Notes under the pieces: generated by a model
The model's input: only the letters and a program-made list of their open reading frames with translations
Databases searched by the model: none
Told to the model about the DNA's origin: nothing
Source of the DNA: Bacteroidota bacterium
GTDB lineage: Bacteria > Bacteroidota > Bacteroidia > Chitinophagales > Saprospiraceae
NCBI GenBank assembly: GCA_963169455.1
Contig: CAUJDW010000034.1
Span: forward strand, 1-64,000
Length of the DNA stretch: 64,000 nucleotides
Direction of reading: 5' to 3'
Position numbers and translations under genes: made by a program
Shown here: one piece after another, positions 28-14,480 of the stretch
How positions within the stretch are numbered: position 1 is the stretch's first letter
Layout of the letters: each line of letters begins with the position of its first letter

Positions 28-1456
28 GTTTCAATCCTTCTTATCCTGGAAATCGCTCGGGAAGTGTCATTCGAAAGTACTACCGGCCAACAATGCGGGA
101 TGTTTCAATCCTTCTTATCCTGGAAATCGCTCGGGAAGTCGGCTTCAGAAAAGCAGGCTTTTTACGGGTTTATGTTTCAATCCTTCTTATCCTGGAAATC
201 GCTCGGGAAGTTCGTGTATGTGTTATTTTCGCCGGCATTATAACCAAGTTTCAATCCTTCTTATCCTGGAAATCGCTCGGGAAGATTACTCCTTCCGGCT
301 GTTGCTTTCGTCGTATTTCGTTTCAATCCTTCTTATCCTGGAAATCGCTCGGGAAGGCAGTCCCGGGTTTCCGACGATGTGGCGCGGCTCAGTTTCAATC
401 CTTCTTATCCTGGAAATCGCTCGGGAAGAAGATCCTGGAAATGCCGCTCGACGAGATACAGGCAGTTTCAATCCTTCTTATCCTGGAAATCGCTCGGGAA
501 GGATAAAGGAGGTTTATACGCATTTCAACATTCAGTTGTTTCAATCCTTCTTATCCTGGAAATCGCTCGGGAAGTAGTTGCGTTGCGGAAGTCTTGAACG
601 AAGAAATGTCGTTTCAATCCTTCTTATCCTGGAAATCGCTCGGGAAGAATACTTGAATTTCGTGGCCCTTTTTCGCTACCCGGGTTTCAATCCTTCTTAT
701 CCTGGAAATCGCTCGGGAAGAAAAGATGGACGCGGCGAAACTATCCGAATGACGCGGTTTCAATCCTTCTTATCCTGGAAATCGCTCGGGAAGCTGGTTC
801 CGGGGTAGGGATTTTTCATTAACAAATGTGTTTCAATCCTTCTTATCCTGGAAATCGCTCGGGAAGCCGTAATTATTTCTTAACATGCCCCGGGGACGGG
901 GCGGTTTCAATCCTTCTTATCCTGGAAATCGCTCGGGAAGCTGTTGTAACATCTTTCATATCAGAATTTTATTTTCTGGTTTCAATCCTTCTTATCCTGG
1001 AAATCGCTCGGGAAGCCTGCGGATGGAATCGAACCACCGCCCACCGGAGTAGTTTCAATCCTTCTTATCCTGGAAATCGCTCGGGAAGCACCTCCGCCCG
1101 TCACATTGACTTGTAGCCTGTTATGTTTCAATCCTTCTTATCCTGGAAATCGCTCGGGAAGTTTCCTTTGTTTGCCCGAGCATCGAGACGGAAGCGATGT
1201 TTCAATCCTTCTTATCCTGGAAATCGCTCGGGAAGTGGCTACGATTTAATGCTTTTGGTGCCGGTTTACTCTGTTTCAATCCTTCTTATCCTGGAAATCG
1301 CTCGGGAAGGCCCACTGCAAAAACTTCTCATAGTCGGCAAATTTGAGTTTCAATCCTTCTTATCCTGGAAATCGCTCGGGAAGAATTGGTTCGCAGGGCT
1401 TTTCTATACGCCTTCCTGGGTTTCAATCCTTCTTATCCTGGAAATCGCTCGGGAAG
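28..1456 (-). CRISPR. CRISPR array, 20 repeats of 37 bp (+ strand GTTTCAATCCTTCTTATCCTGGAAATCGCTCGGGAAG), 19 complete spacers of 35-38 bp; continues beyond left window edge
   Basis: Repeat starts read at 28,102,174,248,320,392,465,538,611,684,757,830,904,979,1052,1125,1199,1273,1347,1420; repeats appear identical. The reverse complement ends in ATTGAAAC, the canonical type I-B 5'-handle, so transcription is inferred on the minus strand. Confidence 0.99.
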
Positions 1457-1653
1457 CCGTAACTCTACACAAAGAAAACATTTTCAAGCGAATAGCCCAA
1501 TTTTTCAATAGCAAAAAATAGAGCGACAACAGCCTGTCAAAGAACGTTTTCCGGGTTTTCAGCGCCATTCCCGAAAGGGGAAGGAGCTGATTTTCAGAGC
1601 GCTAAACAACCTTTCTGGCTGGCCTGAAATAAATTGGCGCCCGGAATGGCCAT
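1457..1653 (-). promoter_or_regulatory. Putative CRISPR leader (AT-rich, between cas4 stop and first repeat)
   Basis: Non-coding, AT-rich next to the repeat at 1420-1456; upstream of the array in the inferred minus-strand direction. Confidence 0.65.
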
Positions 1654-2229
1654 TTACTTCACACAAATATTGCGGTAGGTGCAATTTAAGCATCTGCGCC
1701 TGGATTTGGTAGCTTTCGGGAAGGTATTTCCATCGATAATGCGGCGGATAGATTCGGTGGCGGCGCGCACTTCGGCTTTATCCGATTCCTCCACGGGCAC
1801 TTCCACTACCTTGTTCTGGCTGCGGGTATATACAAGGAACCCGCGCCGGACGGGGCGCCGGAAATTCTCCTCGATCAGCCAGGCGTAACAATATAGCTGG
1901 GTTTTGTAGGTGCTGAATATACGCTCCTCGTATTGCGCGAATTTGTAATCCAGCGGCGCCATCGTGCCGTCCTGCAATTCCAGCACCTCATCAACGCGGC
2001 CGCGCAGCAGGGCATTGGTGAGGTACTGGTCGTCGTACCGGCGCACCACGCCCAGGCGTTTGCGCAGGTAGCCCTTGTTCCGCTCCAGCCGCTCATCGTG
2101 CAGGTGGCGGCCGCGCATCACCTTGTAATGCCGGGTTTCGTACTGCGGTATGGCCAGCACGTACTCGAAATAGGTGAACCGCGGACAATACAGATACTGT
2201 ATGATGTGCGATGGCGTAATGCTGATCAT
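1654..2229 (-). CDS. cas4: CRISPR-associated exonuclease Cas4
   Basis: 191 aa; N-terminal YCPR Cys, RVDEVLELQDG...DYKF nuclease motifs, C-terminal CLNCTYRNIC Cys cluster; overlaps cas2 by 4 nt. Confidence 0.93.
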   Translation of the reverse strand: MISITPSHIIQYLYCPRFTYFEYVLAIPQYETRHYKVMRGRHLHDERLERNKGYLRKRLGVVRRYDDQYLTNALLRGRVDEVLELQDGTMAPLDYKFAQYEERIFSTYKTQLYCYAWLIEENFRRPVRRGFLVYTRSQNKVVEVPVEESDKAEVRAATESIRRIIDGNTFPKATKSRRRCLNCTYRNICVK

Positions 2230-2516
2230 AGAAATAACGCTTTTACCTGGCCGGACACCAGCTTCTTGTCAAATGCCTGCCCCAACAATACGGTTTGCCT
2301 CAGTTCGTCGCGCGACATAGGGAAAACATATACTTTATCCTTGTCCGGATTGATCAGTTCCTCCAGTTGCAACTGAAGGCTGTCCTTATCCGTTGTGCTG
2401 ACCTCTCCCAGAAAAACGGATAACTGCACCCGGTATAGCCCCGCCTGCTTGCAGCATCTGGCGGCCCGGCTGCGGGCCCGGTCGTTTTCGATGTCGTATA
2501 ATACCCAGCAGATCAT
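2226..2516 (-). CDS. cas2: CRISPR-associated endoribonuclease Cas2
   Basis: 96 aa; MICWVLYDIENDRARSRAARCCKQAGLYRVQLSVFLGEV, typical Cas2 N-terminus; between cas1 and cas4. Confidence 0.94.
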   Translation of the reverse strand: MICWVLYDIENDRARSRAARCCKQAGLYRVQLSVFLGEVSTTDKDSLQLQLEELINPDKDKVYVFPMSRDELRQTVLLGQAFDKKLVSGQVKALFL

Positions 2517-2522
2517 GAGCTT

Positions 2523-3518
2523 TTATTTTCCAATGAGTTCATTTGCAAAACGATGCGCATCCATCTGCAGCCCGTTGCCGCGGCTTTGGTTGCGGCCATT
2601 GTAGCGGATCGTCTGCACTTCCAGGTAATCATTCAGCTTTTCAATCAGCAACTGCTTGCCTTCCTTTTCCAGGCTGAGGCCGTTGGCAAGGGGGGCCGTA
2701 TGGGCCTGGTTCACCTTTTTGGCGCTGAACAGGCGGAACACCACCGTTTCCACATGAATGCGGTAGGGCTCGATGAAATCGAATACCATGCTCTTCTGGT
2801 TGTAATCGTCGCGGTGCAGAAAACCCACGTAAGGGTCCAGCCCGGCGATCATCAGGGCTTTTTCCACCCGGTTGTAGAGTACGCCGTAGCCGTAGTTGAG
2901 AAAAGCATTGAAAGCATCCAGGGCCGGGCGGAAGCTGCGGCCGGCAAAGCGGTATTCCGGAGGAAGAGCCTGGCTCAGCACCTCGAAATAAAGCCTGCCG
3001 GCCGTGCCCTCCAACCCGCGCAGGGTTTCAGCGATGGCATCAACGGAAGGCGCTTCCTCCTGCAGGCGCATGCTTTGGCGCAGGTTTTCGACCTTGGCGG
3101 CCTTCTCATCCAGGAAATCCCCCATTCGGGCGCGGTGTTTTTTCAGGCTTTTGATGAATTCAGCCTGATTGTCCAGTTTGGCCGCCAGCCACTGTATCGT
3201 CCAGCGCACGCCCTCCGGGCCGATGCTGGCCTCCAGTTGGCGCTTGCGGATCTTCGTGGTGCTGCCCAGTTTGCTGTGCCAGATGCGCCCGAGGGGAAAG
3301 CCGCTGCTGTCGGCAAAAATGATGTCGATGTTGTTCTGCAGCGCCAGCCGCACGGCGTCGGTGCTCAGCGCGCCGGAGGTGGTCATGACGATGGAAGTGA
3401 CCTTCTGTGCCGCAAAATGCCGCTTTTCATGCCCGCCGCCTTCCTGCGGCATCCGCACTTCGAACAGCGCGTCTTTGACGTGGAGGTACACGCCGTAGGT
3501 ATTGAGGTATAACTGCAT
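2523..3518 (-). CDS. cas1: CRISPR-associated integrase Cas1 (start taken at MQLYLNTYGVYL)
   Basis: ORF 2523-3560; Cas1-like MQLYLNTYGVYLHVKDALFEV, FLHRDDYNQKSMVFDFIEPYR; adjacent to cas2. Confidence 0.95.
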   Translation of the reverse strand: MQLYLNTYGVYLHVKDALFEVRMPQEGGGHEKRHFAAQKVTSIVMTTSGALSTDAVRLALQNNIDIIFADSSGFPLGRIWHSKLGSTTKIRKRQLEASIGPEGVRWTIQWLAAKLDNQAEFIKSLKKHRARMGDFLDEKAAKVENLRQSMRLQEEAPSVDAIAETLRGLEGTAGRLYFEVLSQALPPEYRFAGRSFRPALDAFNAFLNYGYGVLYNRVEKALMIAGLDPYVGFLHRDDYNQKSMVFDFIEPYRIHVETVVFRLFSAKKVNQAHTAPLANGLSLEKEGKQLLIEKLNDYLEVQTIRYNGRNQSRGNGLQMDAHRFANELIGK

Positions 3519-3566
3519 GGCTGGGTTGTTTGGGGGCAAAGTAGAGGGTGAGAGTGACAATTAGCG

Positions 3567-3689
3567 TCAATGGCCAATTTGTTCCACCTTACCAATCCCG
3601 ATCCACTTCGGAAGCACCGCATTGGCCATAAACTGCCCTTCAAAAACGATCATGCGCTGGTCCTTAAAGTGGGTTTCTTTCTGCCCCAG
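3567..3689 (-). pseudogene. Relic of a second cas6 3' end
   Basis: Minus-strand translation LGQKETHFKDQRMIVFEGQFMANAVLPKWIGIGKVEQIGH* aligns to intact Cas6 LRQKETRFKDQRMIAFEGQFTTNAVLPKWAGIGKAVSRGFGTVERVG; in-frame TAA TAA just upstream. Confidence 0.85.
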
Positions 3690-4038
3690 TAATTATTAAG
3701 CATCATGGTAATTTGCCCCTCCCGGAGCAAAATTTTGTAATCCGTCCTTCCCCTTTCAGGGAGAACCTGCCGGCCTGCGGCACAGCAGGCGGGCTCGGCC
3801 GCGGCCTCGCGGGTAGGCAGGTAAGAAGGGGTTCAGACAGGAAAAGCCTACAAAATTTTGCTTCAGGAGCATTTTAGGCTGCATGCTGATAGTTATCCTG
3901 CTTTTTTAAAATCGGGGTGCGGAAGATGTGTTCAATCGATGTAGAATTTTATCTTGTGTTCCACAAAGTTATGTTTTCACGCTCAGCCGTTCAAAACCAC
4001 CTTGCACCAGCTATAATCTGTTAAAATCCATAAGAGCA

Positions 4039-5535
4039 ATGCCTGCACGTTTACTTTTCCTCTCCGCATTTATTCTCGGAACCGTTCTGAGTCAGGCTCA
4101 GCTCCCCGAATTCTCGAACCTCTCTTCCAGGACTATCAGCCGGAGGCTCCAATTTAATTCTTTACGCGTCGATGATGGCATTCTGTATTTTGCTCCACGG
4201 GCAGATAATATCCCGGTGCTGTACAAAGTTGACTTCAATGGGGCCATTGTCGATTCTGTATATCTGGTGCAAGACGATTACAGGATCACCGGCATCCTGG
4301 CTTCGAACGGCGATAAAATCCTGATGGCCGGGGAAGCCAACAAACCATTTGTCAGCTACGATCAACTGTTCAATGACCGCCGGGCTGCCCTGGTAATATT
4401 GAATTCCGAACTTGAAATTTTGGATATTAACTTATATGACATTGTCCCATACAGTGCAGGATGGACGCGCAGTATTACGTCCGGCAGCCCAATATCTACT
4501 TTCATTCAACCGGCAGGTGGAATAGGGATTGTCAACGATACAGTCTATATCACAAAACAATACACGTACTTCGATACCCTGACTTTTTTACCGAACGGCT
4601 TTGACCGGGTAATAGAGCGGATGATGATCCAGGGCCCTGCATTGGCCACTATTTCTATTGCTGCCAGTACTTTAGACGTATATGCCTCGGTATTTACGGA
4701 CAACGCTATTTACGTTAACGGACAATCAGGAGAGCCTTCGGGCTCGTTAATCCTCGACCCCGCGGCTGTCGGAGAATATGACTATGCGGGTAATTTTATT
4801 CAGAAACACCTGCTGTTGGATGTCCCATCACTTGGTTTCGACCCAACCTTTGAATCCGTTGGAAACCGTGCCGGCAACAGGATATACAATAGTGTTGTCG
4901 ACGAAGGTTTTTTTGGAGCGCCTTGCGCATCGGCTATGCTGGATATTCGCAACCTGGATTTTCAGCAGTTGCGCCTGGTGAAAGTTCCCGATTGTGGCAT
5001 GGCGCCTTCCGGAACGAAATGCGTGTCCATTAGCGACAACGCCATCTACTATTTAACGCGGGACGGTGACTTCAATCTGGGGCTCTACAAATACGATACC
5101 ACACTTAACCTGATCTGGAGAAAAATATACGATTTTTCCGAGCCGCATTATGGAATCGCGATCAATGCCATGCCTGATGGCGGCGTTATACTCGAGTGCG
5201 TTATCGATGATGCGGATCAAGGCATCATTAAGCTTTATAAAGTAAGTGCTTTGGGGGATATCATTTCTTCGACCAAGCTGGTTGCTGATCCTAAAATCCC
5301 GCTTTCCGTGTATCCCAATCCCTTTTCGGCTCAATTATTCATACAGGGAGAAATTGCACAAAAAGCAATTGTCAAGATATACGACTTGGCTGGAAATCTT
5401 TTGTTTTCAGAGCCCCTTGCGGGTCAAATGATCGACTGCACCGAATTACCTGCCGGCGCTTATTCATTATGCCTGTTTAGCCAGAAAAATGGCGCCCTGT
5501 TGCATAGTCAATGTATAATGAAAGGCGGAAGATGA
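4039..5535 (+). CDS. Secreted protein with T9SS C-terminal sorting domain
   Basis: Signal peptide MPARLLFLSAFILGTVLSQAQ; C-terminal LSVYPNPFSAQLFIQGE...KIYDLAGNLLFSEPL...GAYSLCL (Por/T9SS type A sorting motif). Confidence 0.85.
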   Translation: MPARLLFLSAFILGTVLSQAQLPEFSNLSSRTISRRLQFNSLRVDDGILYFAPRADNIPVLYKVDFNGAIVDSVYLVQDDYRITGILASNGDKILMAGEANKPFVSYDQLFNDRRAALVILNSELEILDINLYDIVPYSAGWTRSITSGSPISTFIQPAGGIGIVNDTVYITKQYTYFDTLTFLPNGFDRVIERMMIQGPALATISIAASTLDVYASVFTDNAIYVNGQSGEPSGSLILDPAAVGEYDYAGNFIQKHLLLDVPSLGFDPTFESVGNRAGNRIYNSVVDEGFFGAPCASAMLDIRNLDFQQLRLVKVPDCGMAPSGTKCVSISDNAIYYLTRDGDFNLGLYKYDTTLNLIWRKIYDFSEPHYGIAINAMPDGGVILECVIDDADQGIIKLYKVSALGDIISSTKLVADPKIPLSVYPNPFSAQLFIQGEIAQKAIVKIYDLAGNLLFSEPLAGQMIDCTELPAGAYSLCLFSQKNGALLHSQCIMKGGR

Positions 5536-5597
5536 GCTCCTGCGGCATCCGCATTTCATACAACGCAACTTGGAACTATGAACCTGAAACCGGGAAT

Positions 5598-5750
5598 CTT
5601 CCGATAACTGTGTCGGCAGCCCGGAAAAAGCCTGGTTATCAGGGAAACCTCAAACCTGAAACCTGTAACACCCAATGGAGACTGGGAGGCCGGGAGAGGG
5701 GGAGACGAGGTGAGCCTGCGGCAACCCCTGAAAACTGTAACCTGTAACCT
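5598..5750. repeat. Dispersed composite repeat, copy A (ATAACTGTGTCG..AAAGCCTGGTTATCAGGGAAACCT / AACCTG heptamers / CACCCAATGGAGACTGGGAGGC..GGAGACGAG..CTGCGGCAACCCCTGAAA)
   Basis: Same module order as at 21205-21405. Confidence 0.85.
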
Positions 5751-5768
5751 TGAACAGCCCCTTCGCGC

Positions 5769-6431
5769 TTACCCCACCCGCTCCACCGTACCGAACCCCC
5801 TCGACACGGCCTTGCCGATGCCGGCCCACTTCGGCAGCACCGCATTAGTCGTAAACTGTCCTTCGAAGGCGATCATGCGCTGGTCTTTGAAGCGGGTTTC
5901 CTTCTGCCGCAGCTGCGCCTGCGCCAGGATGCGCTGCTCCGGCTCCAGCCAGACGCCCATGCCCTTGAAGGCGGCCAGGATGTGGGCGCGCAGCAGGCCC
6001 GGCAGCCGCTGCTGCTGCTCGGCCGCCGACAAGCGGATGTACGCGCCGTAGTTCTTCTGGTTGAGGGCCATCCACAGAGTGCGGAAGGCATAAGTGTAGA
6101 GGGTTTCGGAATAGCCGGCTTCGGCTTCTTCGCACTTCAGCCCCTTGTGGTGCAGGGGATAAATGCGGCCATCGATGTCCAGCTCCTGCACGCGCAGGAA
6201 GAGGTCGACCAGCAACTCGGCCCCCTCCCCTATGCCCACCAGCACGGGCAGCCCGTCCAGCACCTTGTACTGCACCAGCGGATAGGCGTAGCGCAATTCC
6301 CCGCCTTCCAGATGGTTGTGCAGCAAGGGGCTGTGCTCCTGGAATAAACGCCCGAAATAGCCGCGCAGATAATGGGCGCTGCGGGTAGGGAGGTCGAGCT
6401 CGGGGAAGGTGAGGTGGGTGATTTTGGGCAT
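5769..6431 (-). CDS. cas6: CRISPR-associated endoribonuclease Cas6
   Basis: 220 aa; RAMP-like C-terminal glycine-rich motif WAGIGKAVSRGFGTVERVG; within cas locus. Confidence 0.85.
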   Translation of the reverse strand: MPKITHLTFPELDLPTRSAHYLRGYFGRLFQEHSPLLHNHLEGGELRYAYPLVQYKVLDGLPVLVGIGEGAELLVDLFLRVQELDIDGRIYPLHHKGLKCEEAEAGYSETLYTYAFRTLWMALNQKNYGAYIRLSAAEQQQRLPGLLRAHILAAFKGMGVWLEPEQRILAQAQLRQKETRFKDQRMIAFEGQFTTNAVLPKWAGIGKAVSRGFGTVERVG

Positions 6432-6944: not shown

Positions 6945-9431
6945 TTATAATACCAATCCTTTTTGTTGTTCTTCCTCTTCTTTTTTCGACCGATCTCTAT
7001 TAAATCCTGTTTTGGGAAACTCATACCATTCAGCTACTTGATCATGGGCTACATATAAGATTTTCAAATCAGGGAAATCAGGAATTAAAAAAGGAAGCCC
7101 TCCGGTATAAGTAGTCGGAACAGGAAGGCTATGTTGTTGAAAATCATTCCGATAATCTTTATCAAATAAGGATTTCAATTTTTGTTTTTCCCCCTTATCT
7201 CTGGTTGCCAGCATGTTTAGAAATGCCAGCCTGGCTTCCTTAGCCTTTTCAGATTTTTCAACGAAAACGGTAGTGTAAAAAGGTGCATTGGCAATGACTT
7301 GAAAATCACAGACAGGGATTCGCTCCGGCCTGGCCTGGCCTCTTAAATTCTGCCCATCTGTATAATAAACCGTTTGCACTCCCTTAAACCTTGCCCGGGC
7401 TTCTGAGTAGTCTACCATCTCCTCATCTGAAATCTTACCAAAATAGGTATCGACTAAATCGAAGTATTCGGGTTCATCAATAGGCTGGCTACCCAGAGCC
7501 TTTTTAGCTTGAATTGCAGTTAGGGTGCTGTATACGTCGGCACAATCACCGAAATCAAACACATATAAGGGAGAGCCCGTTCTTTCAATACTATTTTCCC
7601 TATTAATCCGTCCTGCAACCTGGACTATAGCATCAATTGGCCCTAAATCGCGGAATCCACAATCAAAATCAAGGTCAACACCAGCCTCGACGACCTGAGT
7701 GGCTACTAGAATAGGCTTGGGACCATTTGGAACAAGAAGGCTTTTCAACTCATCAATAACCCCTCTGCGATCAACGGGAAGAATATTTGTACTAAGGTAG
7801 TAAATAGGATTATTCAGGCTTTTCTCTTTCAAATAACTTTGGATTACCTGGAATACCGTCAAGGATCGGTTAACCTTATTGCATACAATTAGGCAAGATT
7901 TGCCAGAACTCCAATGTTGATCAAACAAATGGCAGAATTCCTCCTCTGACTTTATTATGGATTCCAGAATCGGAATAATTTTTGTCCGGTTAAATTCCCG
8001 GTAAATGAGTTTAGGAGCAGGCAACAACTCCTTTACTTCAGATAAAATATCTGTGCCATTTTCATTTTTCCCGATTATCTCTCGTTGGGCCAGTTCAAAG
8101 ATAAGCGGCTTGGTTGCAGTCATTAAAATGAACCGTGTATTCAGAAAACGCGAACAGTAATAGATCATGCTGCCGATGAAAGGGGCTTTCTCAAGGCTAA
8201 TATTTTGCACTTCATCCATGATGACAATTGCGTTGGCCAAATGGTGAAACTTAAGCAGCATTCGGTTTCGGTTACTGATAAGCGTTTGCAATAACTGGAC
8301 AAAGGACGTTACTACAACGTCGCATTGCCAGGTATTCAACTGCATCCGTCGTTGGGAATAAGCCCGTTCAGAATCGTTCTCGTTTTTGTTTTCATCATCT
8401 TCATCAGCATCCCGAAAAATGTCAGCGTACTGATAATGGCCTAAAATACTAGCTCCGCTTTCGCCTAGCACTATCTCATACTCCTTTAATGTTTGTTCAA
8501 TGATATTGATGAAAGGTAGTGCAGTAATGATCTGTGGCCGGCCCGGAATTTCATTCCTAAGCTTAAGCGCGAAGTCAAGTGCAGTAAGGGTTTTGCCAAT
8601 ACCCGTCGGTGCAGTTAAGGTAAAAAGCCGGTAATCGAGAATTTCTTTAGAATCTAGTGCTCGGATCACTTCTTCTCTTACCTGCTGCCGAAGACGGTTC
8701 TGAGGGGTATTTTTACTTTGTTTGGCAGACAGGGCTTCGTCAACTGCATTGATAGGTAAAACAATTCTGGGGTAGGGTGCTGTTTGTGATGCATCCAGTT
8801 TATCCGCCTCAATTAACAGGGAAAAAAGGTAGTTGAGAAAAAAGTAATCCTGTATATCTGCCCTGGCCTTGACCAAGCTGCTAATGAATTTTGCAAACTG
8901 GCGATATTCGGGAATCTTCAAAAATGAAAAAAGGCCGGGAATATTCAATTCATTCGTTATCTGCTCCCGGTAGGGGGTCAGCGTAGCGCATTGTTCATGA
9001 AAAAGCCTTTCTTTATCTGAATGTTCGTCTTCACTGCTAATCAATGCTTCTTTTTCTTTGTCTTTGGGCCAGTGTAAAGAAGCATGATGATTTTTCACCA
9101 GAAAATACGCCCAGTAAGCTAGTACAGGGTCATTGCTTAACCATTTTTCATAAACTGCATAGGCGCCAAGCCGAGCATGGCTTTTCTTCTGGGAATCAAC
9201 ATTTTCTCCCAATAAATATGCCTGAAAAAATTGTGTGTATTTCCCCAGGTCATGCAATTGACATACATCATGAAGCAGTGCTTTAATCTGCTCTGACGGA
9301 TAAGAAAACCCAAGGGCTGGCAACAAATGCATCATCGCTTTTTCTCTAACCCCATTGGTATGAACCTGCATTGTTTTGCTACCTCGACGCCTCTTTCCTT
9401 CATCTGTTTCGGCATGAGAGAAAAATTCCAT
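6945..9431 (-). CDS. cas3: CRISPR-associated helicase/nuclease Cas3 (HD + DEAD helicase)
   Basis: 828 aa; HD motif LHDVCQLHDLGKYTQFF, Walker A LTAPTGIGKTLTALDFAL, IVIMDEVQNI box, VATQVVEAGVDLDFD...QVAGRINR. Confidence 0.95.
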   Translation of the reverse strand: MEFFSHAETDEGKRRRGSKTMQVHTNGVREKAMMHLLPALGFSYPSEQIKALLHDVCQLHDLGKYTQFFQAYLLGENVDSQKKSHARLGAYAVYEKWLSNDPVLAYWAYFLVKNHHASLHWPKDKEKEALISSEDEHSDKERLFHEQCATLTPYREQITNELNIPGLFSFLKIPEYRQFAKFISSLVKARADIQDYFFLNYLFSLLIEADKLDASQTAPYPRIVLPINAVDEALSAKQSKNTPQNRLRQQVREEVIRALDSKEILDYRLFTLTAPTGIGKTLTALDFALKLRNEIPGRPQIITALPFINIIEQTLKEYEIVLGESGASILGHYQYADIFRDADEDDENKNENDSERAYSQRRMQLNTWQCDVVVTSFVQLLQTLISNRNRMLLKFHHLANAIVIMDEVQNISLEKAPFIGSMIYYCSRFLNTRFILMTATKPLIFELAQREIIGKNENGTDILSEVKELLPAPKLIYREFNRTKIIPILESIIKSEEEFCHLFDQHWSSGKSCLIVCNKVNRSLTVFQVIQSYLKEKSLNNPIYYLSTNILPVDRRGVIDELKSLLVPNGPKPILVATQVVEAGVDLDFDCGFRDLGPIDAIVQVAGRINRENSIERTGSPLYVFDFGDCADVYSTLTAIQAKKALGSQPIDEPEYFDLVDTYFGKISDEEMVDYSEARARFKGVQTVYYTDGQNLRGQARPERIPVCDFQVIANAPFYTTVFVEKSEKAKEARLAFLNMLATRDKGEKQKLKSLFDKDYRNDFQQHSLPVPTTYTGGLPFLIPDFPDLKILYVAHDQVAEWYEFPKTGFNRDRSKKEEEEQQKGLVL

Positions 9432-9440
9432 GTTTTCATT

Positions 9441-10208
9441 TTAAGCTTCAAGAAAAACAAAATTCATTCTTACCCCCTCTTCCTCAAATGAATGATACTG
9501 GCCCGTGAATCTTATGGATAAAGGATGCCCCGATGTGGCAAATAGCACTTTATGCAAAGATTTCAACTCCCTGTCATAGTCATCTATAAACTCCCCAGGC
9601 AACATTTCTTCTTCGATGATAACATGCTCCTGGCCTGGAATAATGCCTTTGACGTTGCTTACAGGAACAGCTGAAATAAAATCCAGTGATTCATCATTCG
9701 CCTCGTGGGTACTCCAATTACCAGTAGTATATTTTCGAGTTCTTGCTATATGAGCATGGCAAAATGCTGAGCCTAAGGTTAGGTTGAAGGTATGATCCTT
9801 GGATTCCAAACATTTGGATATTTCAGAAAAAACAGCTTCGCCAGCTTCAAAGGCTGAAAGGAAAATTTGATATTCCACAAAATCTGTTCGTAAATCCAAA
9901 CCCGTTACGATTTCATAAGGAGTTTGTACAGGGCCTAATCGGCCTCTAAAATCTCCTCCCCCCTTGATCATAAGGTTATTGAGGCGGTGAAAGGATTTTT
10001 TCACAGGATTTTTTATGCCTATCCCCACGCGAAAGTGGCTGGACGCCATTTCCCTGTAATAAGAATCGCGCGCTCTTCCAAGTAGTGCAGCAAAAATACC
10101 TGTGAGCGTTGTCCGCGGCGGTAGGGCATAGCTCAAAGCGGTATTATTGCCGTAATATTTGCGGAAATGTGCGAATTTCCCTCGCAATTCCAGAATGATC
10201 AGATCCAT
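9441..10208 (-). CDS. cas5: CRISPR-associated protein Cas5 (type I-B, Cas5h-like)
   Basis: 255 aa; N-terminal ELRGKFAHFRKYYGNNTALSYALPPRTTLTGIFAALLGR typical of Cas5; overlaps cas7. Confidence 0.9.
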   Translation of the reverse strand: MDLIILELRGKFAHFRKYYGNNTALSYALPPRTTLTGIFAALLGRARDSYYREMASSHFRVGIGIKNPVKKSFHRLNNLMIKGGGDFRGRLGPVQTPYEIVTGLDLRTDFVEYQIFLSAFEAGEAVFSEISKCLESKDHTFNLTLGSAFCHAHIARTRKYTTGNWSTHEANDESLDFISAVPVSNVKGIIPGQEHVIIEEEMLPGEFIDDYDRELKSLHKVLFATSGHPLSIRFTGQYHSFEEEGVRMNFVFLEA

Positions 10209-11212
10209 GTTTGTGCCGGATTTTTCACACCAACCGCCGTCCGGATAATTACGTCCTTGAGTGGTTTACCCTCCCCAACCTGCCCTTCAAGGGTGTCTTC
10301 CAAGTGGCTAAAGTCAAGAGCCAAATCTGTAAACTGAGTTACTTCCTGAGGCTTTTTTTCACCCTGGATTCTCGCCTCGATCAAATTGCGCAAATCACCG
10401 AAATGGCCGTTGTGGAATCCTTCGTTGTAAACCAATTCGAGGTAAAACTTTGGATACTGGTTTAGCTTTGACCGGGTGGGGCTGGCTGACACGCCATTCC
10501 ATAAGGCTTCCCGAAAAGTTTTTAGATCAGCTTCCGTTAGGCCTGTGGTTAAAGCTGCAAATTTATTAACAGATCCATGAAAGGCCAACAAGCTGTATTT
10601 AACACGGTAATCTTTGCCAAAGGTGCTACTGTCTTCATTCATGATGGAAGATATAGTGCTACTATCTACCAGATAAACATCATTCAGGCTATAACCCCAA
10701 TTGAGCTGAATAGGGCCTGTAAGAGCTTTATTGAATCCCTCCACTGCAAAAGCGCTTCCGAACATCCGAATATCCGCAAACCGGCGTTTCACCAACCCGG
10801 TTAATATTGCCCGGTTCACCTCTTTATGTTCCGTTTTTTTATCGAACAACTTCTTCATTGTTTTCTCGGCATCCTCTGTCCGGACTTTCTCCTTATACAC
10901 ACTGAATAGTTTTTCATCGCTGATTATCTCCCGCATGGCTTCATCATTATCCCAAATGGAAAGTAGGATATTTTGAAGCCTTTGATCCATTCCAACCTTA
11001 CTGTCGCCTTCCATATCTACGAAAATCTCCTGCCCGTTTTGTTTCAGAAATTCACGGATATACCTTTTCAGGCGAACGTCGGTCACCAGGTTGGTACGGG
11101 TATCGTAGTCCATACGGGGCTTGTTCTCCTGGTCGGGGTCCCCGTTAGGGTTGCTCAGAATGGCTTCGTACAAAAAGAGAAAATCGGAATTGTTTTGAAT
11201 GTTCTGTTCCAT
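10199..11212 (-). CDS. cas7: CRISPR-associated protein Cas7 (Csh2-like, type I-B)
   Basis: 337 aa; FLFLYEAILSNPNGDPDQENKPRMDYDTRTNLVTDVRLKRYIREFL, RRFADIRMFGSAFA. Confidence 0.93.
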   Translation of the reverse strand: MEQNIQNNSDFLFLYEAILSNPNGDPDQENKPRMDYDTRTNLVTDVRLKRYIREFLKQNGQEIFVDMEGDSKVGMDQRLQNILLSIWDNDEAMREIISDEKLFSVYKEKVRTEDAEKTMKKLFDKKTEHKEVNRAILTGLVKRRFADIRMFGSAFAVEGFNKALTGPIQLNWGYSLNDVYLVDSSTISSIMNEDSSTFGKDYRVKYSLLAFHGSVNKFAALTTGLTEADLKTFREALWNGVSASPTRSKLNQYPKFYLELVYNEGFHNGHFGDLRNLIEARIQGEKKPQEVTQFTDLALDFSHLEDTLEGQVGEGKPLKDVIIRTAVGVKNPAQTWI

Positions 11213-11231: not shown

Positions 11232-13127
11232 TTAGTCTAAAGAATCACTTTCCAATTCAGCGTCTCCACTTCTCGGTATGTAATGAGTGTATCCTGCCAG
11301 GAAGAAGAAAAGGGCTTCCCGGCCATCCATATTCCAGGAATTTTCTCCGGCAGGAAAAAACTGGAAGAATCTGTTAAGGTCATACTCTAATTTAGAGGCT
11401 AACTTGTATTTTGGATCATATTGCCGCCCTTTCTCCATAATTGCGGCAGCCATATTCCGGATCGTCCTTTCGTCAAGGCCATTGAAATTTACCATATCCA
11501 GGGCTGTTTTATTTTTCTTGTCCTGCCGCTGAACATTGACCACCCGTTTCAATGCTTTGCCAAGAAAGAACATGGCGCGCTGATTGTTGGAATACCCCAT
11601 TTCATTCAGGAATTCCTGAGTTTCGGCCTCAATCTGCGTCCAGTTTTTTTTGTTCTCCATCATCTGGTTTGGTTCCATAATGAGTAAATTCAGGTTAATT
11701 AAAGCATGCCGGAAAGCATGGTAAGAGAAAACTGCTTCGCGGAGCAGAAGGTCTATAATATCATCACGTTTCGGCTCGGTTATATTGGCATATGCCTTAT
11801 ATCGGCCATACCAGTGGCATAAAACCAGATCGGTAAAGTGTTGCCATAAGCGGGATTCCTGTACCGGCCGCCCTTCCAATACCATTTTGCATAGTTCTAA
11901 CGCCTGGTTAGCCTTCAGCTCCTTACGAATCGGAATCAAGTAATACATTGTACCCAGGTTGACAAACCTGCCTCGAAGAAAACCAGCCAATAACTTGCTG
12001 GAATCTTTGAACTTTTTGACTAGCCTTTGGATATGGATACCACTTACATCCCGAATGTGATTAGTCACCTTCAGGAAATTACCGTCTGATTCAAATCCGT
12101 AAAAATCAAGCCAATATAAATCCGACTGGATATCTAATTCGCTGAGAATATCTGTTATGTATTTAACTTTAAAGATCAAATCAGTTCCACTACGCAAACG
12201 CGTATAATCCTTTATGTCATAATCCACTCCGATAGGCAAACGAGGAATGCAGACATGCCAGAGGCCCGCAATGCTCACCTGAAAATCCGCCAGTACCCGC
12301 TCTGAACCCCGGTCAAGAAATTGCCGGGTTTCTTCCGAGACTTGGTAGTTCTTGACTAGATTTTTCCCTTCAAAATTACTGGCATAGTTAATGGTTGTCG
12401 ATTGGAAGAGTTTGTTTAGGTTGTATCGGGCAGAAAAACTTGCTTCACCTGTATCCTCTCTGATCTCACCTGTAGCATAACATAATCGGGGAGCCGCTCT
12501 TTTGTCTTTTTTTGCGGAGGAAGAAAGGAATTTCCCTTCCATAAACTCTTTGTAACCTTCCATTTTAGCCAACGGCTTATCATCCCAACCTCTTTCAGTG
12601 CTTCTTGCCGCCACAAATACAGCTACCAATATGTCCTGATTTCCAATAGATATTTCCTTTAAACCAAGTTTACCTTTTTCATCTGTAAATTTTTTATAGA
12701 AAACGGGGGCGAATGCTTTGATCAATTTTAGGGCTTCAAAAAGCTCACTTGCTTCAAGCTCAGGAGCCTCCTTGAGTATAGCCTCCTGAAACTCACTTAG
12801 AATCGGGAAACTGCCATCCCTTCCAGCTTTCCCAAAAAGGGCTTTTGCCAGTTTATCCAGATTACCTGGCTCGGTGGCTACATATATTGCCTTGTTGTTC
12901 CCTTTTAAAATATCAATCAACCCGTATTCCGCCCGCTTATCATGGTTGTAGCGCGTTAGACCGTCTTCAAGGCTGATTTCATCTTGATCCAGATCAAAGA
13001 CTATTCGGAGGATTAGCGGATTTTTATTCGCGTCCCGTTCGCCCACCTTAATGTTCAAAAGGAAATCTTCCCAGGGATGCCGCCCTTCACTAATTTGCTT
13101 GCCTATTTCAATCAAGGTATTTAACAT
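11232..13127 (-). CDS. cas8b: CRISPR-associated protein Cas8b (Csh1/TM1802-like)
   Basis: 631 aa; position at head of the cas7-cas5-cas3 operon; C-terminal FFLGKALKRVVNVQRQDKKNKTALDMVNFNGLDERTIRNMAAAIMEKGRQY resembles Csh1-type Cas8b. Confidence 0.85.
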   Translation of the reverse strand: MLNTLIEIGKQISEGRHPWEDFLLNIKVGERDANKNPLILRIVFDLDQDEISLEDGLTRYNHDKRAEYGLIDILKGNNKAIYVATEPGNLDKLAKALFGKAGRDGSFPILSEFQEAILKEAPELEASELFEALKLIKAFAPVFYKKFTDEKGKLGLKEISIGNQDILVAVFVAARSTERGWDDKPLAKMEGYKEFMEGKFLSSSAKKDKRAAPRLCYATGEIREDTGEASFSARYNLNKLFQSTTINYASNFEGKNLVKNYQVSEETRQFLDRGSERVLADFQVSIAGLWHVCIPRLPIGVDYDIKDYTRLRSGTDLIFKVKYITDILSELDIQSDLYWLDFYGFESDGNFLKVTNHIRDVSGIHIQRLVKKFKDSSKLLAGFLRGRFVNLGTMYYLIPIRKELKANQALELCKMVLEGRPVQESRLWQHFTDLVLCHWYGRYKAYANITEPKRDDIIDLLLREAVFSYHAFRHALINLNLLIMEPNQMMENKKNWTQIEAETQEFLNEMGYSNNQRAMFFLGKALKRVVNVQRQDKKNKTALDMVNFNGLDERTIRNMAAAIMEKGRQYDPKYKLASKLEYDLNRFFQFFPAGENSWNMDGREALFFFLAGYTHYIPRSGDAELESDSLD

Positions 13128-13592: not shown

Positions 13593-14480
13593 CTAGTAAA
13601 ACCACCTTCCCTCCCCCGCCCTTTTGCGCAGGTAGGCCTTCAGTTCCTCCGGCTCCGCCACTTCCACTTCTCCCGGCAGGCCGAGGATAAAGCGCCCGAT
13701 GCCGCGCCAGTCGCGCACCATGCCGTCGAATAGGGCCTGGCCTTTGGAGGTGCGCACGAAGGGGCGGGCGTCGGGAAATTCCTCCAGCAGCAGGTTGTGG
13801 GCGTAGGAGCTCAGGCGCAGCTTCACCGGCAGCCATTGCGGGCCAGTCCAACCAAAGAGGTCGAGTACGCGGCCTTCATGCTGGGCAGCAATGGGTTCGT
13901 CCATAATTTCCACATCCCCAATCCGGTCGAGTTTGAACTGCCGGTAATCTTTTTTGTCCAGGTCGTAGGCCCACAGGTAAGTATAGCCCTGCATGAACTC
14001 CACCGGCTCAAGGTAGCGGTTAGACAGCTCGCCTCCGCTGGAAGGGGCGAAATAGTTGAGCAAACGCACCCGCAGGCCAGCCTCCATAGCTTTGCCCAGG
14101 GTGCGTACGTGTTCGTATGTGGAAAGCTTCGGCAGGCTTTGCGCCACCGGGGCCAGCGTGTACTGCTTATTCAGCTTGTGCAGCAGGTGCTCTCTCCGTG
14201 GGTCTCCGGCAGGCGCCTGCCAGAGCAGGTCATGTAGATACCCCGCCTCATCCAGGTTGATCAGTTGTTTATCGTCCTTGAATTCGAGGTACAAAAAATA
14301 GCGGTCGCCTTCTTTCTTATCGATCTGGTAGCCCAGCGACTCGAGCAGCTTGATGTACCGATAGACGGTGCGGGAGTCGACTCCCAGAATGGTAGCCAGA
14401 TGTGGCACTTTTCGATATGGCGGCTGACTCAACAACTGTATCAACCGGAAAACGCGAAAGAGCTTCTGTTGGTCCGTCAT
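13593..14480 (-). CDS. HTH/WYL-domain transcriptional regulator, possible cas regulator
   Basis: 295 aa; N-terminal wHTH (ATILGVDSRTVYRYIKLLESLGYQI), WYL-like YLEPVEFMQGYTYLWAYDLDKKDYRQFKLDRIGDVE. Confidence 0.85.
   Translation of the reverse strand: MTDQQKLFRVFRLIQLLSQPPYRKVPHLATILGVDSRTVYRYIKLLESLGYQIDKKEGDRYFLYLEFKDDKQLINLDEAGYLHDLLWQAPAGDPRREHLLHKLNKQYTLAPVAQSLPKLSTYEHVRTLGKAMEAGLRVRLLNYFAPSSGGELSNRYLEPVEFMQGYTYLWAYDLDKKDYRQFKLDRIGDVEIMDEPIAAQHEGRVLDLFGWTGPQWLPVKLRLSSYAHNLLLEEFPDARPFVRTSKGQALFDGMVRDWRGIGRFILGLPGEVEVAEPEELKAYLRKRAGEGRWFY

Follow-up and report, generated by a model that had tools for sequence, protein, structure and literature searches.

The window, by which we mean the whole analysed stretch of 64,000 nucleotides, opens within a CRISPR array that is followed by a set of cas genes, all lying on the minus strand:

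28-1456, minus strand: CRISPR array, represented in the window by 20 perfect 37-nt repeats
1016-1051, minus strand: spacer with a tRNA 3' half (canonical positions 36-71), the sixth counting from the leader side
1457-1650, minus strand: probable leader, assigned by its position, which separates the array from cas4, adjoins cas4-2-1 and is at the other end from the degenerate trailer repeats
1654-2229, minus strand: cas4 (TIGR00372, 1.5e-34)
2226-2516, minus strand: cas2 (TIGR01573, 2.6e-14)
2523-3560, minus strand: cas1 (TIGR00287, 4.3e-71)
5769-6431, minus strand: cas6b (PF17262, 6.3e-34; PF17955, 2.9e-26)
6945-9431, minus strand: cas3, HD and helicase (TIGR01587, TIGR01596)
9441-10208, minus strand: cas5b (TIGR02593 above cut-off; TIGR02592, 5.3e-17, under its cut-off)
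10199-11212, minus strand: cas7 (Csh2) (TIGR02590, 180 bits against a cut-off of 171.55)
11232-13127, minus strand: cas8b, Csh1/TM1802-like (TIGR02591, 1.9e-19, and TIGR02556, 7.6e-14, both under cut-off)
13593-14480, minus strand: WYL/HTH regulator adjoining the cas genes (PF13280, PF08279, PF25583)

The signature set of type I-B systems, consisting of cas8b/Csh1, cas7 (Csh2), cas5b, cas6b and cas3, is present, with Csh2 and Cas6b scoring over the curated cut-offs and the models of Cas8b and Cas5b (Cas5h) matching under cut-off, and the adaptation genes cas1, cas2 and cas4 adjoin the array. Judged by its gene content, the locus is a complete type I-B system. Between cas1 and cas6b lies a plus-strand gene (3928-5535) with a Por secretion C-terminal tail, flanked on one side by a degenerate copy of the cas6 3' end (3587-3689, 83%) and on the other by a degenerate copy of the cas1 5' end (5538-5574, 81%); the regions 3442-3689 and 5538-5912 represent a duplicated cas6-cas1 junction around this insert.

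The array is built of the 37-nt repeat GTTTCAATCCTTCTTATCCTGGAAATCGCTCGGGAAG and of spacers of 35-40 nt. At least 20 further repeats in matching orientation were found at the end of contig C104 (76706-78134), so that the window begins within the array. The two outermost repeats on C104 carry three mismatches and form a degenerate trailer, the old end of the array. Since these degenerate repeats sit at the far end, the leader side is placed on the right, adjoining cas4-cas2-cas1, and the arrangement supports minus-strand crRNAs, whose handle would be ATTGAAAC, the minus-strand end of the repeats. The two oldest spacers are near-identical and share a palindromic GCGCCAAATAAATTTGGCGC core (C104, 76743-76851); a third, partial copy of them is located past the last repeat, at C104 76678-76704.

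The spacer at 1016-1051 is bounded exactly by two perfect repeats (979-1015 and 1052-1088), and its reverse complement (the minus strand, in crRNA sense) is TACTCCGGTGGGCGGTGGTTCGATTCCATCCGCAGG. The first-pass annotation had described this spacer as the 3' half of a tRNA, a reading that was upheld by covariance model, alignment and shuffled controls. Indeed, the proposed parse into T36, A37 and C38, TCCGG, TGGGC, the T-arm GGTGG-TTCGATT-CCATC and CGCAGG falls in the same register as genuine tRNAs called by ARAGORN, and the spacer shows a 5-bp T-stem (pairs GC, GT, TA, GC and GC), a TTCRANY loop and a 5-nt variable loop ending in C48. A covariance model of 36 positions with a T-stem, built from a gapless alignment of the 3' halves of 34 host and phage tRNAs, from which phage tRNA-Ile was excluded, gave the spacer a full-length score of 25.6 bits (E about 1e-5), against 14.1 bits for the runner-up place in 66 kb. 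Local alignment to the tRNA library gave a score of 21, a value reached by none of 1000 shuffled spacers, the highest score among the 37 other spacers being 13. The tRNA identity of the spacer is thereby confirmed as real and beyond chance. No tRNA was called at 1016-1051 by ARAGORN or Rfam, because the fragment, being half a tRNA, is too short. The T-arm hairpin forms in the fold of the crRNA; the stability of the fold as a whole does not exceed that of shuffles, and therefore no structural role is claimed.

The spacer was then compared with the tRNA genes of its own genome, as the first-pass annotation had suggested. The host assembly is a 6.77-Mb draft of 162 contigs, in which 41 tRNAs were found and in which there is no second copy of the spacer with up to three mismatches; a match within the same limit was likewise absent from 398 genomes of the order. 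All 41 host tRNAs differ from the spacer at 9 or more of the 36 positions, the closest being Thr-UGU with 9/36, and none of them is free of mismatches at seed positions 1-5 and 7. The host tRNAs that carry T36 (Thr, Asn, Arg-UCU, Met and Lys) all have A38 where position 3 of the spacer is C.

These differences bear on two of the origins that had been proposed. Acquisition from the host chromosome itself, from a tRNA gene lying outside the assembly or since diverged, could be accommodated by the draft state of the genome, since tRNA-Ile(GAT) and tRNA-Ala(UGC) are absent among the 41 tRNAs found. Both tRNAs usually sit in rRNA operons; a pattern search for the host tRNA-Ile in the own genome and in relatives found no tRNA, and their absence probably reflects rRNA operons lost from draft assemblies. 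However, neither is expected to carry T36-A37-C38 together with a TCCGG stem, and because the host tRNAs that were found do not match, with no near copy in the own genome or in the order, self-derivation is very unlikely. The second proposal derives the spacer either from the attP core of an integrative element, such a core corresponding to the tRNA 3' end, or from an element that had inserted into a tRNA gene. It would account for a spacer that spans a tRNA 3' half, tRNA 3' ends being common integrase sites. Such a core would nevertheless match a host tRNA, and no identity to a host tRNA 3' end was found, either among the 41 host tRNAs or, with up to three mismatches, in the order. Moreover, the reach of the spacer up to position 36 exceeds many att cores. 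This origin therefore also appears quite unlikely.

The same comparison bears on the question of how a tRNA-targeting spacer could be tolerated, which the first-pass annotation had raised on the assumption of toxicity. In I-B systems the first spacer bases act as the seed (PMC13199841, PMC4390866): mismatches at position 3 lead to little or no binding in Thermotoga maritima (PMC13199841), and pairing is required in the first 10 bases, position 6 excepted, in Haloferax (PMC4390866). Since all host tRNA genes mismatch the spacer in the seed, they are not expected to be targets of the crRNA, and since the crRNA has the same sense as the tRNA, it cannot pair with tRNA transcripts. No protospacer is present in the host draft assembly, and with all 41 host tRNAs mismatched to the spacer at no fewer than 9 of 36 positions, the seed included, the question falls away.

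The best matches of the spacer are tRNAs of phage type, and the spacer is closer to phage tRNAs than to those of the host. The spacer agrees at 27 of 28 bases with a tRNA-Ile(GAT) that is located in a tRNA cluster in two IMG/VR contigs (L002, L004) and in Pseudomonas phage vB_PpS_SYP (for vB_PpS_SYP, blastn E 2e-4 in 2.3 Gb). Three IMG/VR contigs contain a 21-base piece of the spacer, in every case as part of a tRNA-Ile that belongs to a cluster of 7-8 tRNAs, and the tRNA-Val of the crAss-like phage cr131_1 matches at 24/27 bases. The 27/28 match is limited to the 3' part, the first eight bases of the spacer matching other tRNA types; because these eight bases differ, a tRNA-Ile of the vB_PpS_SYP type, and with it the phages that carry it, is probably not the source. 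The anticodon arm implied by the spacer, CCGGA-NTNN-TACTCCGG, was found in seven viral contigs, in tRNA-Arg(UCU) in six of them and in tRNA-Met(CAU) in one. In six environmental viral contigs (among L061-L067), tRNA-Arg(UCU) precedes a called tRNA-Ile(UAU) of 93 nt, which may contain an intron or have been misparsed.

Neither IMG/VR (exact and degenerate scans) nor phage or plasmid records yielded a full-length protospacer, exact or near-exact; the phage matches are partial, at best 27/28, and hence yield no PAM. The lack of any full-length tRNA match could be taken to mean that a spacer from a protein gene resembles a tRNA half by chance, which is extremely improbable in view of the blastn E value of 2e-4, the 25.6 bits of the covariance model and the alignment score that no shuffled spacer attained. 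The other spacers that were tested gave matches of E about 4 or none against phage records, nothing convincing, which points to poor sampling of the phages that infect this host. Searched against the own genome and 138 family genomes, the other spacers gave one weak match (27/29) of a low-complexity spacer, C31, to the same-family genome G180 (C22:415511-415539). An origin from the tRNA gene of another bacterium or of a plasmid, by uptake of chromosomal DNA or from a plasmid-borne tRNA, draws on the partly matching stretches that plasmids carry. Yet the best of these reaches 91.7% over 24 bases with E about 1, far weaker than the 2e-4 of the phage match, the full spacer does not occur in GTDB contigs, and its 23-base core is absent from 85,462 species genomes, so that this source, too, is unlikely.

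We consider it highly probable that a phage, or a phage-like element, infecting this lineage carried the tRNA gene from which the spacer was acquired in a routine manner. Among the origins first put forward, a tRNA-carrying mobile element thus fits best, given the phage tRNA matches, and a self-derived spacer or an attP core does not, given host tRNAs that are 9/36 or more off. The type I-B system, if active, would have taken up the spacer by normal adaptation; the crRNA, having the sense of the tRNA, would direct the type I-B Cascade to bind the phage tRNA gene on its template strand, after which the phage DNA would be cut by Cas3, while host tRNAs would be spared by their differences, above all those in the PAM-proximal seed. 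With a protospacer that begins at tRNA position 36, the three bases at the PAM position would be T33-N34-N35 of the anticodon loop, i.e., TTC if the source was a tRNA of the Arg-UCU type and TCA if it was Met-CAU. TTC is an accepted I-B PAM in Haloferax (PMC4390866), and TCA agrees with YYD, the consensus of the T. maritima I-B system (PMC13199841).

Compared with ordinary type I-B spacers against phage DNA, as in Haloferax and T. maritima, the present one is alike in the accompanying genes (cas6b, cas8b, cas7, cas5b, cas3, cas4, cas1 and cas2), in the repeat end ATTGAAAC and in the spacer length of 35-40 nt, but differs in being directed at a tRNA gene rather than a protein gene. With known phage tRNA clusters, represented by the vB_PpS_SYP-like tRNA-Ile and by the tRNA-Arg(UCU)/tRNA-Ile(UAU) pairs of IMG/VR, it shares 27/28 bases of the 3' part and the arm CCGGA..TACTCCGG, respectively, whereas its whole length is not matched by any one known phage tRNA. 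In Pelobacter carbinolicus, a spacer targets the chromosomal host gene of histidyl-tRNA synthetase (PMC2923632); both cases have a component of translation as target, but here there is no self target in the assembly. A full-text search, incomplete in its coverage, found no literature on spacers that target (phage) tRNA genes. Phages with many tRNAs offer such targets to CRISPR, and for these two reasons no novelty in kind is claimed. Overall, we regard this as an ordinary spacer with an uncommon type of target. Phage tRNA genes might even be a recurrent target of CRISPR systems: the invariant T33, together with the anticodon bases, would supply a T-N-N PAM in a constant position (TTC in Arg-UCU), and phage-specific seed bases such as C38 would separate phage from host tRNAs. 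This idea, derived from one spacer, is a speculation that we hold to be improbable.

The finding suggests that a conserved, structured RNA gene can be the target of a CRISPR system without damage to the cell itself, since the difference between phage and host tRNAs is large enough. Moreover, the spacer would provide a link between host and phage once a phage with the matching tRNA has been sequenced.
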